Origin: a virus
Reading direction: 5' to 3' (one strand)
IMG/VR virus record: IMGVR_UViG_3300030393_000006
Span: 1-48,558 of that record
Length of the DNA stretch: 48,558 bases
Positions 3,869-24,557 of this stretch are shown one piece after another. The notes beneath the pieces were generated by a model. That model saw only the letters and a program-made list of their open reading frames with translations, was not told the origin of the DNA and made no database searches. Within the stretch, counting starts at the first letter, position 1; every line of letters starts with the position of its first letter. Position numbers and translations under genes: made by a program.

Positions 3869-4039
3869 TTAAATTAAATTTGATGTTATTTTGTTTTTGA
3901 ATATAGATACTGCGCCCTTACCTTCAAGCGACTCAATCATTGATAGCGGGTACTCAGATTGGTCAACCTCGGAAATAAATAAGAATTTACACTTTTCAAC
4001 CAGCTTGATAAATTTCACTTGTTTCTTTGTTAGCTTCAT
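3869..4039 (-). CDS. small protein, unknown
   Basis: 56 residues (MKLTKKQVKFIKLVEKCKFL...), basic N-terminus then a mixed amphipathic segment. A good AAAGGAAATC ribosome-binding site precedes the ATG at 4037-4039. It is the first gene after the class I promoter at 4073-4101 and probably leads the 3859-2054 unit. No known domain. Confidence 0.6.
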   Translation of the reverse strand: MKLTKKQVKFIKLVEKCKFLFISEVDQSEYPLSMIESLEGKGAVSIFKNKITSNLI

Positions 4040-4067
4040 TTTGATTTCCTTTAAATTAAGTAAGTAA

Positions 4068-4101
4068 CGAACACTTTAAATTAATGGCAAGTGTTCGTCA
4101 A
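4068..4101 (-). promoter_or_regulatory. class I promoter inside a perfect palindrome
   Basis: Minus strand: AAAATAATCG, TTGACG (4096-4101), 17 bases, TAAAGT (4073-4078). A 9-base perfect inverted repeat CGAACACTT/AAGTGTTCG (4089-4097 with 4068-4076) puts its 5' arm at the -35/spacer and its 3' arm over the -10. Read-through RNA would form the hairpin; RNA started here would not. Confidence 0.7.
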
Positions 4102-4109
4102 CGATTATT

Positions 4110-4565
4110 TTATTTATTTTCCCAAGCGCCCATATTTTCAAATATGTTCATTGCCAAGTCTCCCTCGTTAATTAAATCTATACCACTTGGCGAGGCAATC
4201 CACCCAACATTAACTTTGTGTGACGGGTTTACACTTTGCACCAGTTTTACGTGACATTCCGTTAACTCGTCAATCATGTGTCGTTGCAACATAGGCTTTG
4301 GCGTGAATGGCTGGTCTGTTTTCATATACCGTTCGCCAGTTAGCTCGATGTAACAATGCACAGCTGTTAAACATGACCATTTATGTGCGACTCGACATAG
4401 CGCATTAACTAGGGTTTCTGTCGCATTAATAAATTCGCCAGTGCGCCCATCAAGGATTTTTGCTGGTTCATCGCCAAGACTGCAAATCAATAAATCTTTA
4501 GTGCTAGCCCTCGCGATACGCTGCAACCTTGCATGGTTACAGTTCTTTTTGTTACGTTTTTTCAT
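4110..4565 (-). CDS. phage protein, unknown
   Basis: 151 residues from the ATG at 4563-4565 (a TTG one codon upstream is also possible). The N-terminus is very basic (MKKRNKKNCNHARLQRIAR), followed by a mixed alpha/beta sequence with several Cys and His. The ATG overlaps the stop of the coiled-coil gene (TGATG). No family recognised. The class I promoter for the next unit lies just after its stop. Confidence 0.55.
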   Translation of the reverse strand: MKKRNKKNCNHARLQRIARASTKDLLICSLGDEPAKILDGRTGEFINATETLVNALCRVAHKWSCLTAVHCYIELTGERYMKTDQPFTPKPMLQRHMIDELTECHVKLVQSVNPSHKVNVGWIASPSGIDLINEGDLAMNIFENMGAWENK

Positions 4566-4696
4566 CAATAACCCCGCGCCTTTTTCTTTAGTTCTGCAAT
4601 TTCTTCTTGTGCGTTTTTTAGCTGGTTTTCTAGTAGGACGTTTTCGTGTGTTAGTGTGGATATTTTATTGACGTAACCTTCCGCCATCTTGCCCAT
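4565..4696 (-). CDS. small coiled-coil protein, start uncertain
   Basis: 43 residues from the ATG at 4694-4696: a leucine/glutamate heptad pattern (LTHENVLLENQLKNAQEEIAE) ending KKKARGY. The same frame is open upstream to the stop of the previous gene at 4736, with coiled-coil character (KKIVELESHAV), so translation may begin at a non-standard start further up. Unknown function. Confidence 0.45.
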   Translation of the reverse strand: MGKMAEGYVNKISTLTHENVLLENQLKNAQEEIAELKKKARGY

Positions 4697-4735
4697 GTCG
4701 ACTGCGTGAGATTCAAGCTCAACGATTTTCTTTTG

Positions 4736-4906
4736 TTAGTCAAAATCTATAGCACTACCGCCAAGCAAGCCCTCAACCAAACTTATTGGCTCGCGCCCTC
4801 TCATCTCAGTTCGATACATGTATCGTGACAGAAATTTCTCAAGCTGCCGTATACGCTCTTGGTTTTCGTCGTATGCATTGATTGCCTTTAACTTTACCTT
4901 GTTCAT
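4736..4906 (-). CDS. small phage protein, unknown
   Basis: 56 residues from the ATG at 4904-4906, which has AAGGGGAAG upstream (MNKVKLKAINAYDENQERIR). The second half contains a basic helix and a glycine-rich tail (LVEGLLGGSAIDFD). It is the first gene of the unit driven by the nested promoter at 4927-4960. Confidence 0.6.
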   Translation of the reverse strand: MNKVKLKAINAYDENQERIRQLEKFLSRYMYRTEMRGREPISLVEGLLGGSAIDFD

Positions 4907-5823: not shown

Positions 5824-6005
5824 TTCTTCATCCTCAAGCATTCCTCAGCAACTTTTATCGCGTCGGATGCTATTTGTTTGTATTGCTCCACTTGCTGCTC
5901 CACTTGCAGCTCCTTGTTGTAAAGCATAACGTTAAGCAGAACTATAACGGCGCACAACGCAACAGTAACAAAACAATGAATATTGTCTAGTGTTTTATTT
6001 TTCAT
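5820..6005 (-). CDS. small membrane-anchored coiled-coil protein
   Basis: 61 residues from the ATG at 6003-6005 with GGTGG upstream. One membrane span at about 9-27 (CFVTVALCAVIVLLNVMLY) precedes an extramembrane glutamine/glutamate-rich helix (LQVEQQVEQYKQIASDAIKV). This is the topology of i-spanin-like and other phage inner-membrane proteins; no nested lipoprotein partner was seen, so a spanin role is only a possibility. Confidence 0.55.
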   Translation of the reverse strand: MKNKTLDNIHCFVTVALCAVIVLLNVMLYNKELQVEQQVEQYKQIASDAIKVAEECLRMKK

Positions 6006-19565: not shown

Positions 19566-19615
19566 AGTCCGTATTGAAACGCGGTGATAATGCCGAAATA
19601 AAGAGGAAAATTAAA

Positions 19616-20191
19616 ATGTCTGAGTTAATCAGGTTAAAGGAAGTTGGGTTTGAGGTTGTAGAACGAGATCCAATAATTAAATTAAAGGAAGTTGGGCTTG
19701 AGGTTGTAAAAAAACATAAGAATAGGAAACAAAAAATGATTACATTAAACGATTTAAAAAATATTGGTAACGGAGAAATAAAGCCAGAGCCTACCTTGGA
19801 TCAAGTAAAACAAAATGGCTACGCATTGCAGTACGTACACAATCAAACGCCTGATATTTGTTTGGAGGCTGTAAAACAAAATGGCTACGCATTGCAGTAC
19901 GTACACAATCAAACGCCTGATATTTGTTTGGAGGCTGTAAAACAAAATGGCTACGCATTGCGGTTTGTACACAATCAAACGCCTGAGATTTGTTTGGAGG
20001 CTGTAAAACAGGATGGTTACGCATTGCAGTACGTACACAATCAGACGCCTGAGATTTGTTTGGAGGCTGTAAAACAGGATGGTTACGCATTGAAGTATGT
20101 TGACGCATCTATATTTAAAGATGACCCAAAAGAGATGACCTTATCAGAGCTATCAAATCTTTTAGGCTATGACGTTAAGATAGTTAAATAA
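19616..20191 (+). CDS. DUF4116-like repeat protein
   Basis: 191 residues from the ATG at 19616 (AGAGGA upstream). A short LKEVG.EVV duplication at the N-terminus precedes five tandem 22-residue units of the type VKQNGYALQYVHNQTP...CLEA, as in DUF4116 proteins. Their function is unknown; the units resemble small helical repeats used in protein interaction. The DNA units are near-identical, implying recent expansion. Confidence 0.7.
   Translation: MSELIRLKEVGFEVVERDPIIKLKEVGLEVVKKHKNRKQKMITLNDLKNIGNGEIKPEPTLDQVKQNGYALQYVHNQTPDICLEAVKQNGYALQYVHNQTPDICLEAVKQNGYALRFVHNQTPEICLEAVKQDGYALQYVHNQTPEICLEAVKQDGYALKYVDASIFKDDPKEMTLSELSNLLGYDVKIVK
19805..20098 (+). repeat. 66-bp tandem repeats
   Basis: Copies begin at 19805, 19871, 19937, 20003 and 20069 (the last partial). 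The first two differ by almost nothing over 66 bases; the later ones carry a few substitutions (Q to R/K, N to D). Confidence 0.9.
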
Positions 20192-21954: not shown

Positions 21955-22500
21955 ATGCACGTAGTAACAGGCGAGTTAAGAAAAGCACCGTATATCAAGG
22001 ATGGATGCGGTCAAGATGGGCAATCTAAAATGTACATTTTAGAGTTGTCGGAAGTTATTAAAGACTATCAGACACAGGAAAAGTCATATACAAATTACAG
22101 CGCAATGATTTTTGCAAAATCTCAAGGTCAAAAAGATTACTATGATAAGTCTTTAATCGAAGGTAACTGGGTAAGCTTGACGGCTGACAAGTTAAAGGTG
22201 GATGTTAGCGATTGCGGTCAGTATATTAAGTTGCGCATGGAAAATGCTCGAATTGAGAATTGTGGCTATATTGACACTAACCAGCAAGCGCCACAACAGC
22301 CCGCACCGCAACAGCAAGGCGGTTTCCAGCAACAAGCGCCACAGCAACAGCAACAAGGCGGCTATAATCAGCCCCCACAGCAACAGCAGCAGCGAATGCA
22401 GCAACAAGCGCCGCAGCAAGGTGGACAACAGCAACCTAAAGCACCAGATTTAGACGAAGGCTGGGACGACGATATTCCCTTCTGGCAAACGATAAATTAA
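21955..22500 (+). CDS. ssb: single-stranded DNA-binding protein
   Basis: 181 residues. An OB-fold-like N-terminal domain of about 105 residues (MHVVTGELRKAPYIKDGCGQ...) is followed by a glutamine/proline-rich linker of about 60 residues and an acidic tip DLDEGWDDDIPF, the classical SSB protein-interaction tip. Unusually five residues (WQTIN) follow DDDIPF, which normally is the exact C-terminus. It closes the recombination module and is followed by a hairpin at 22503-22526. Confidence 0.8.
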   Translation: MHVVTGELRKAPYIKDGCGQDGQSKMYILELSEVIKDYQTQEKSYTNYSAMIFAKSQGQKDYYDKSLIEGNWVSLTADKLKVDVSDCGQYIKLRMENARIENCGYIDTNQQAPQQPAPQQQGGFQQQAPQQQQQGGYNQPPQQQQQRMQQQAPQQGGQQQPKAPDLDEGWDDDIPFWQTIN

Positions 22501-22502
22501 TC

Positions 22503-22526
22503 GGGTTTATTTTAAATAAACCCTTT
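22503..22526 (+). terminator. AT-rich terminator after ssb
   Basis: GGGTTTATTT / AAATAAACCC near-palindrome immediately after the stop, then TTTAC. It overlaps the -35 of the ncRNA promoter. Confidence 0.5.
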
Positions 22527-22552
22527 ACATTAACAAATAAATGAATTAATAT
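22524..22552 (+). promoter_or_regulatory. promoter of the structured RNA
   Basis: TTTACA (22524-22529), 17 bases, TAATAT (22547-22552); predicted start near 22559. Distinct from the class I A/T-CG-TTGAC context. Confidence 0.6.
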
Positions 22553-22558
22553 ACTTAA

Positions 22559-22910
22559 AACTTAGCAGTACGGAGTTGGATTGTTTTTCTATCACGTAGC
22601 GGTCACTCTAAGTAGTTGTAGCGAATGCTAGTTACACGCACGGCGGACTCACCGTCCTGAGAATGTACTCCTTTCATTCTGACAGTGCGTGATAATAACA
22701 AATTCGTAGGCAGGGGTTATCTTTCCCTTTCATGACGCTGGTCACGTTGCTGATTCGACCAACTTTATTTGTATGTGTTTTATATTGGGCAAGAATGCCA
22801 ACTTGCTACAATCCCTATTGGCATGGGTGTAAAACACATAACAAATACAGTTACTAATAATAAAAACCACGCTCCACCATTTGACCGCTAACATTAGCGG
22901 TCTTTTTTTT
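22559..22910 (+). ncRNA. candidate structured non-coding RNA, about 350 nt, with pseudoknot
   Basis: No reading frame of note, yet it has its own promoter and terminator. Helices seen: TATCACGTA/TGCGTGATA (22590-22598 with 22686-22694, one G-U); TAGC-GAAT-GCTA (22619-22630); AGAATG/CATTCT (22660-22680); TGGTC/GACCA (22739-22761); and a 16-bp helix with one bulge, 22767-22782 with 22830-22846. Inside the last, hairpin GCAAG/CTTGC (22789-22806) has loop ATGCCAA, which pairs with TTGGCAT (22818-22824): a candidate pseudoknot. I match it to no known family (not tRNA, tmRNA, RNase P or a group I intron core). Confidence 0.65.
22883..22910 (+). terminator. strong rho-independent terminator
   Basis: GACCGCTA-ACAT-TAGCGGTC (22883-22902), eight perfect pairs, followed by eight T (22903-22910). 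Confidence 0.9.
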
Positions 22911-22926
22911 GCCTAAAATAAAGTTG

Positions 22927-22982: not shown

Positions 22983-24557
22983 ATGTTTACGCCTGATGAT
23001 TTGGTTGAAATAGTACGACTAAGGGAGCAAGAAAACCTTAGTTATAGAAAAATAGCATCAAAATTTTACGTGTCAGTTAACGCTGTGGGTGATTTTTTTC
23101 GCCGCCAAAGTTACAGTAATTTTTGGGAGCAGCACGACGACAAGCCGATAGCAAAAGGAACCGTTTTAAAGCCCGACGACACACGCAAAAAGCTATCAGG
23201 TAGCTTATTTGTGCTCACTTCTGCTCAAAACAATACATACGTACATGACAAGTGGTTAAAGTCGCTAGAAACGTATTGTGCGCATAATGACGCGCAATTA
23301 ATTGTTGGCGGCTTTACTTATGATTTAAGTGGACGCCAAGTTAGTCAAAAAGATGGTGTCTGGTACGACCCTAAAATAACAAAATACATGATAGATGAGT
23401 CGATGCAAATAGCAAAAGGGCTTGTGTGGTGTGGCGAGTTAAATATATTGCCAACAGCAAAAGACCCATTGAGCGGTCTGGATAATCATACTAATCACGA
23501 TTGTTCGATAGTTCCGCACGCTAAATTGCAAATGAAATCGATTGCAACGCCTAAAGTTATGGGCGCTAGATTGATGTACACGACTGGCTGCGTCACTCAG
23601 CGAAATTATATACAAAAGAAAGCTGGGCAATTAGCAGAGCATCATCATTCATTTAGTGCGTTAGTCGTTGAGGTTGGTGGCAGCGGAGACTGGTTTGTCA
23701 GACAAATAAGCGCGGAAAAATTAACGGGCGAATTCTACGACTTAACAGACAGGTACACCCCCCAAGGCGTGACGCACAATCACGATATTGAAGCGATAAA
23801 TTTTGGTGACATACATAGCGCAAAGCCTGACAAAGTGGTTTCAAGTGCTAGCTGGATTGATAGCGATTCGATGCTTGATGCATTGCGCCCTAGATATGTT
23901 TTTTTGCATGATACGTTAGATCAACAAGCTAGAAATCATCATAACGTGCGTGACCCTCATTTTATGTTTGCTATGCATCATAATAAAACTGAGTCGGTAA
24001 AAGGTGAAATCGTATCAACAATTGATACGATTAACGAATTTAGGCGCGAATTCTGCACGACCGTAATCGTTGAGTCAAATCACGACAAGTCAATAGAGCG
24101 CTGGCTAAAAGAGCAAGACTACCGCCACGACCCAGTTAACGCTGTGTTTTTTCTTGAGTTACAATTAGCGAAATATAAATCAATTCAAAGCGGTGAAAAC
24201 TTTAGCGCGTTTGAGTCAGCTTGTAAGATGGCGGGCTACGACGGAGGTGCCATATTTTTGCGTGAAGATGACACCTTTATGATTGCGAATGGTATCGAGT
24301 GCGCGGCTCATTCGCACTTAGGCAGCAATGGAGGTCGCGGAAGTGTTCAAGCATACGTTAAAACAGGTGTTAGGCACAATATAGGTCATAGCCATAGCGC
24401 AACGATTAAGGACGGCGTATGGCAAGCTGGCGTTTCTGGTTCGCTCGATATGGGGTATAACTCAGGAAATAGTAGTTGGTCTAACAGTCACATTGTTACA
24501 TACAAAAACGGTAAGCGTGCAATGGTTACCATCAAAAACGGTAAGTGGCGAAAATAA
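22983..24557 (+). CDS. HTH plus metallophosphoesterase protein (T5 A1-like)
   Basis: 524 residues. An HTH at about 19-42 (LSYRKIASKFYVSVNAVGDF) precedes a large domain with calcineurin-type metallophosphoesterase motifs: GDIH (275-278), HD (309-310), SNHD (365-368) and GHSH (about 474-477), all expected metal ligands. Proteins of this layout in T5-like and marine phages are often labelled A1-like; in T5, A1 acts in host DNA degradation and DNA transfer. Nuclease activity is plausible; the HTH suggests sequence targeting or regulation. Own class I promoter. Confidence 0.7.
   Translation: MFTPDDLVEIVRLREQENLSYRKIASKFYVSVNAVGDFFRRQSYSNFWEQHDDKPIAKGTVLKPDDTRKKLSGSLFVLTSAQNNTYVHDKWLKSLETYCAHNDAQLIVGGFTYDLSGRQVSQKDGVWYDPKITKYMIDESMQIAKGLVWCGELNILPTAKDPLSGLDNHTNHDCSIVPHAKLQMKSIATPKVMGARLMYTTGCVTQRNYIQKKAGQLAEHHHSFSALVVEVGGSGDWFVRQISAEKLTGEFYDLTDRYTPQGVTHNHDIEAINFGDIHSAKPDKVVSSASWIDSDSMLDALRPRYVFLHDTLDQQARNHHNVRDPHFMFAMHHNKTESVKGEIVSTIDTINEFRREFCTTVIVESNHDKSIERWLKEQDYRHDPVNAVFFLELQLAKYKSIQSGENFSAFESACKMAGYDGGAIFLREDDTFMIANGIECAAHSHLGSNGGRGSVQAYVKTGVRHNIGHSHSATIKDGVWQAGVSGSLDMGYNSGNSSWSNSHIVTYKNGKRAMVTIKNGKWRK

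Follow-up and report, generated by a model that had tools for sequence, protein, structure and literature searches.

The window, that is, the whole stretch of DNA analysed here, is an entire IMG/VR virus record of 48,558 bases. The locus considered below lies downstream of ssb (21955-22500, phrog_44) and upstream of a gene at 22983-24557 that encodes a member of the T5 A1-like 'DNA transfer protein' family (phrog_1745, E 1e-179). An earlier, sequence-only reading of this DNA had named ssb and a metallophosphoesterase as the neighbours; the first assignment was correct, but no metallophosphoesterase domain was present in the downstream gene product (Pfam, E 0.001). The gap between the two genes appeared to be noncoding, as had been proposed: no ORF of more than 50 aa could be identified on either strand, and no frame was conserved in a homologous locus, L055 (IMG/VR contig 3300030393_000005). 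Among the replication genes of the same record, DUF4116 repeats make up most of the protein encoded at 19574-20191.

The features of the gap are listed in Table 1. Both signals that had been read as defining a separate transcription unit could be recovered, namely the promoter with its 17-nt spacing and the terminator, whose stem (22883-22902) is followed by T8. When examined with Rfam, both at the gathering thresholds and at E 10, the RNA between them belonged to no credible family; the weak matches of sroB/CyaR type stemmed from the terminator, and nothing in the window scored over threshold, which agrees with the previous statement that no known RNA family was recognised. The complete RNA folds at z = -3.3, and no shuffled sequence out of 100 was equally stable. 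The long bulged helix described before (helix H) was confirmed and contains 17 pairs, compared with 13 for the best inverted repeat among 60 dinucleotide-preserving shuffles of this 482-bp sequence. It encloses an insert made of a hairpin (CAAG/CUUG) and a pseudoknot (AUGCCAA/UUGGCAU), the loop ATGCCAA (22795-22801) being complementary to TTGGCAT (22818-22824).

Table 1. Features of the RNA locus in the window, with the basis of each; L055 and L001 are the two homologous loci
Feature	Position	Strand	Basis or remark
Terminator-like palindromic hairpin, an insulator between the ssb operon and the RNA gene	22503..22523	.	Same sequence in L055
Promoter TTTACA-17-TAATAT	22524..22552	+	Hexamers and spacing identical in L055
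Structured noncoding RNA	22559..22911	+	Ends deduced from the promoter and the terminator
Possible closing stem GGAGU with GCUCC, then ACCA	22572..22576 with 22871-22875	+	Minimum-energy fold; weak, five pairs
Helix PA	22621-22626 with 22702-22707	+	Two two-sided changes
Helix PB	22635-22641 with 22685-22691	+	L055 fully paired, L001 poorly
Helix PC, pyrimidine-rich loop	22660-22665 with 22675-22680	+	Three two-sided changes
Helix PD	22712-22715 with 22725-22728	+	Comparative alignment
Module A hairpin UGGUC/GACCA, 13-nt loop	22738..22761	+	Most conserved element; two copies in L001
Helix H	22766-22782 with 22830-22847, bulge A22841	+	Pairing 100% in the window, L055 and L001; two-sided changes at three pairs
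Variable insert of helix H	22783..22829	+	Unrelated sequence in L055 and L001
Site of abiF RNA and domain D3 in L055, both missing from the window	22852..22865	+	Comparison
Intrinsic terminator, 8-bp stem and T8	22883..22910	+	Stem identical in L055

To find homologues, IMG/VR contigs were scanned with a degenerate pattern describing the two arms of helix H. Two of the 33 matches were true relatives, which could be told apart by arms that still pair: L055 and L001 (IMG/VR contig 3300008222_000010). L055 retains the upstream hairpin, the hexamers of the promoter, the 5' region and the terminator, as well as the possible closing stem (GGGGU/GCUCC). In L001, conservation covers the 5' region, module A and helix H, and much else has diverged; the promoter at the corresponding place reads TTGCAA-17-TATTAT. 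Neither set of neighbours reproduces that of the window, since ssb is followed by an exonuclease gene (phrog_704) in L055 and a Gp157-like gene lies upstream of the RNA in L001. A covariance model of the 5' part (R2) scored 188 bits on the window, 186 bits on L055 and 126 bits on L001, and the rest was noise (45 loci); as R2 was built from these same three sequences, the scores measure consistency and are no independent discovery. We also found that L001 carries module A twice (3966-4100), the two copies lying at a distance of 104 nt and differing in their loop letters, and that more unaligned sequence separates the second copy from helix H.

Whether homologues keep or break the helices had been proposed as a check, and pairing is kept in the 5' part and in helix H. 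In the three-sequence alignment, pairing across the five helices of the 5' part amounted to 96.3%, and six pairs differed on both sides. Shuffling the partners equalled this in 2 of 500 trials, and slid partners were only 32-43% paired, with 0-1 two-sided changes. Helix H was fully paired in all three phages and contributed three further two-sided changes, bringing the compensatory changes to nine; as these counts come from only three sequences, they are supportive rather than final. One pair of helix H reads U-A, U-G and C-G across the phages, a series that fits the expectation for an RNA. The same series, passing through a G-U intermediate, argues against a DNA element (a replication origin or protein-binding palindromes) in place of an RNA, to which the inverted repeats beside replication and recombination genes might otherwise point. 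The promoter and terminator are conserved as well, and the GC skew flips sign near 11 and 27 kb, not at the RNA locus, which makes a DNA element highly improbable. Thus, the description as an undescribed structured phage RNA is supported by the conserved promoter and terminator, the compensatory changes and the lack of an Rfam match; on comparative evidence, the structured RNA is real, and it is absent from Rfam.

Several details of the sequence-only reading fared less well. No support was obtained for the pseudoknot as the feature that defines the RNA: both L055 and L001 have unrelated sequence in its place, half of the pseudoknot cells of these relatives (7 of 14) are unpaired, and the inner hairpin has no counterpart in L055 or L001. 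The helix proposed to close a second domain (22590-22598 with 22686-22694) shows two A-C mismatches in L055 and is absent from L001, whereas the competing helix PB is kept in L055 through an A-U to G-C change. The possible long-range pairing (22611-22620 with 22846-22855) keeps 10 of 10 pairs in the window, 8 of 10 in L055 and 6 of 10 in L001. On the whole, the earlier observation was confirmed in part and its interpretation supported in part, and it is the modular relatives, not the pseudoknot, that are most informative about the window RNA.

The L055 RNA is approximately 160 nt longer than that of the window. The first of its two extra segments (5836-5872) matched the abiF RNA (RF03085) with 43.2 bits, above the curated cut-off of 37, over the full length of the model (1-37 of 37) and with the conserved strings AAGCCUCU and AUGCUCAAAU kept, and it sits within the promoter-terminator unit of the RNA in this homologue. 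An abiF-like hairpin was also observed in L001, at 17 bits and hence under the cut-off; the words that flank it (TTAACAACACC and GTTACT) are the same, but its position in the order of modules is different. The window RNA gave no RF03085 match at E 10, with 23 candidates scored; by eye, its helix H insert resembles abiF in layout, with a stem, a hairpin, a short single strand and a further stem, but the model does not recognise it, and we take this likeness only as a lead. No gene for the Abi_2 toxin (PF07751) could be identified in the window, L055, L001 or four Vibrio phage records. The abiF RNA is the antitoxin of AbiF abortive infection and neutralises the AbiF toxin in trans by direct binding (PMC12373285), and a standalone copy has been annotated in cyanophage S-CREM1 (PMC9964418). 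The L055 copy resembles the RNA of the AbiF/AbiD system in being complete and above the cut-off, and differs from it in lacking a toxin gene and in lying inside a larger structured RNA. A decoy function, one of the roles suggested before, gains independent support because a close homologue holds this standalone antitoxin RNA. On the other hand, a single phage might have picked up the abiF hairpin only recently, as a passenger.

The second extra segment of L055, domain D3, is approximately 105 nt long, forms three hairpins and ends in CCA. It is common to L055, L001 and Vibrio phage 1.060.A (blastn E 1e-9) and missing from the window RNA. Its central stem is compensated among the copies (GUCAGC/GCUGAC, GCUAGC/GCUAGC and GCAGGC/GUCUGU), and the model built for it (R1) scored 107-121 bits on its own source sequences. 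In 1.060.A, D3 comes immediately after a tRNA-Gly, the arrangement being tRNA-CCA-AACAAT-D3-CCA-AACAAT. In the phages 1.197.A, 1.047.O, 1.113.A and ZQ26, which are related to 1.060.A, tRNA-like units follow a shared left flank, GTTTA(G/T)TAGTTAT, and D3 is absent; the T-arms of these units are fully paired, their stems differ and ARAGORN calls none of them. Because R2 found no match in the Vibrio loci, D3 is the single link between the Vibrio RNAs and the family of the window RNA. Taken together, modules at these loci have been gained, lost, duplicated (module A in L001) and swapped. Between D3 and the abiF-like hairpin of L001, inside the RNA unit, there is also a 97-aa frame (4453-4743) to which no family was assigned.

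Such CCA-ended units could be explained in another way, as members of a cluster of tRNA-type or other stable RNA genes that is decaying or turning over; they would be processed out in the manner of phage tRNAs and of T4 species 1/2 and would function in translation or as substitutes for cut tRNAs. In favour of this, the ends of D3 form a 7-bp stem and carry CCA, D3 stands behind a tRNA with the same CCA-AACAAT linker, the Vibrio cassettes have paired T-arms, and T4 rnaD adjoins a tRNA; species 1 and 2 (rnaC and rnaD) are stable phage RNAs that lie next to a tRNA gene, as D3 does in 1.060.A. However, ARAGORN and Rfam called no tRNA or tmRNA in the window, L055 or L001, the sole call in this comparison being the tRNA-Gly of 1.060.A, and the window has neither D3 nor a T-arm. 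The T4 RNAs were not matched by R1 (5.3 bits at most in the rnaC/rnaD/tRNA-Arg stretch). We consider this explanation quite unlikely. Neither rnaC nor rnaD (locus L168, 1409-1672) had an Rfam match, and the T4 species 1 RNA contains a T-arm-like CCGGGTTCGAATCCCGG near its 3' end. A tmRNA, considered from the words GATTCGAC, GGCGAAATAG and CTCCACCA, was ruled out by ARAGORN and Rfam. The D3 words GGCGAAATAG...CAGGTGCG also match apparent tmRNA 5' ends in many viral contigs (L065, L066, L068 and others), a likeness that we judged to be chance because no tmRNA was called in the carriers of D3.

The Vibrio phage loci deserve a separate description. Nine of them (L119-L127, in the order 1.060.A, 1.197.A, 1.291.O, BUCT006, 1.284.A, 1.287.O, ZQ26, 1.047.O and 1.113.A) have a largely untranslated stretch of 800-1000 nt that separates the head completion adaptor gene from lysozyme/peptidase genes. 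It contains TTGACG-16-TAATAT, which resembles a promoter, as well as a conserved 5' part of approximately 250 nt and an exchange site at which tRNA-Gly, tRNA-like units or other sequence vary among close relatives. This stretch is a second undescribed modular phage RNA. With regard to its annotation, the tRNA-Gly of 1.060.A (L119, 3427-3498) was deposited on the strand opposite to that called by ARAGORN and Rfam, and the annotated tRNA-Cys of 1.291.O (L121, 1144-1265) was missed by ARAGORN.

Further relatives could not be identified in the searches made. A blastn search with the window RNA against phages and plasmids returned no relative of the RNA, and loci found through ssb and A1-like proteins yielded no further copies with R1 and R2. 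Viral scans with patterns for helix H, module A, D3 and the 5' domain returned only L055 and L001 besides chance matches and tmRNA 5' ends. Among 84,980 bacterial and archaeal genomes, module A had 28 matches, all of them chance; in 369 genomes taken from the class of a gammaproteobacterial MAG, the D3 model gave one chance match and the helix H pattern none. Thus, no bacterial counterpart of module A, helix H, D3 or the 5' domain was found in these searches.

Two further roles should be considered for an RNA of this kind. First, it might be a trans-acting regulatory sRNA whose pyrimidine-rich loops base-pair with mRNAs of the phage or its host; CUCCUUU and UUUCCCUUU, for example, are loops with complementarity to ribosome-binding sites. 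Predicted pairing with the start regions of the phage itself was no better than that of shuffled RNA (best -42 kcal/mol; shuffled RNA, median -39 and minimum -49 kcal/mol), and a regulatory sRNA seems decidedly unlikely. Second, structured phage RNAs with no assigned function, including GOLLD, ROOL and T4 species 1/2, are a long-standing puzzle, and the main competing explanation is a structural RNA of the GOLLD/ROOL type, which folds, perhaps oligomerises and carries the abiF and tRNA modules as passengers. The independent transcript, the elaborate conserved fold and the combination of conserved and variable regions would agree with such an RNA. GOLLD and ROOL are likewise large ornate phage RNAs near tRNAs, and the tRNA embedded in or adjacent to the RNA of a relative recalls the variable linkers of GOLLD, which can hold tRNAs (PMC12286853). 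In contrast, the Rfam models miss the window, L001, L055 and the Vibrio loci, the window RNA is shorter, at only about 350 nt, and the antitoxin motif of a host system carried by L055 would be left unexplained. A structural RNA of this type is therefore unlikely in our opinion.

RNA mimicry by phages has been reported before. The pseudo-ToxI RNA of phage PhiTE defeats ToxIN (PMC3475682), RNA anti-CRISPRs (Racr) defeat CRISPR in a similar way (PMC10651486), and some phage tRNAs act against retrons or against defences that cut tRNAs (PMC10264068, PMC11555353). A fixed frame, mobile modules and a host antitoxin RNA with no toxin gene are best accommodated by RNA counter-defence through mimicry, and a scaffold RNA with exchangeable mimics of host RNAs is our tentative best explanation, with a probability that we put somewhat short of even. 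It is proposed that the conserved frame (5' domain, module A hairpin and helix H), expressed as its own transcript, would carry exchangeable RNA modules that imitate RNAs bound or cut by host immune or toxin proteins. The abiF antitoxin RNA of L055 and the tRNA or tRNA-like units of the D3-linked Vibrio phages would be such modules, and the hairpin or pseudoknot insert of helix H is the candidate in the window. By occupying these proteins in infected cells, the RNA would prevent abortive infection, acting as do pseudo-ToxI and the RNA anti-CRISPRs. If this holds, the RNA would resemble pseudo-ToxI as a phage noncoding RNA mimicking a host RNA antitoxin; the two differ in the antitoxin that is mimicked (ToxI there, AbiF here) and in that pseudo-ToxI is made of short tandem repeats, whereas here one motif lies in an ornate RNA. 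Racrs are also small phage RNAs that mimic an RNA component of host immunity, but what they mimic are CRISPR repeats. Counting against counter-defence is the fact that the window RNA has neither an abiF match nor D3, and for this RNA itself the role may only be extrapolated from its relatives.

A more specific form of the counter-defence explanation, which we regard as somewhat unlikely, is a composite decoy array in which each plug-in module of the scaffold would mimic a different host RNA: the AbiF antitoxin, tRNAs or tRNA-like RNAs and further immune RNAs such as the helix H inserts. These modules would be acquired, lost and exchanged between phages as the RNA-based defences of their hosts change, and, if so, the remaining modules would point to undiscovered RNA-binding defence proteins. 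More generally, the member with a host RNA antitoxin suggests a concrete and testable role for these RNAs, namely counter-defence by mimicry. If this is right, their remaining modules would serve as baits for RNA-binding immune proteins, and the intergenic regions of phages would be a place to seek anti-defence RNAs.
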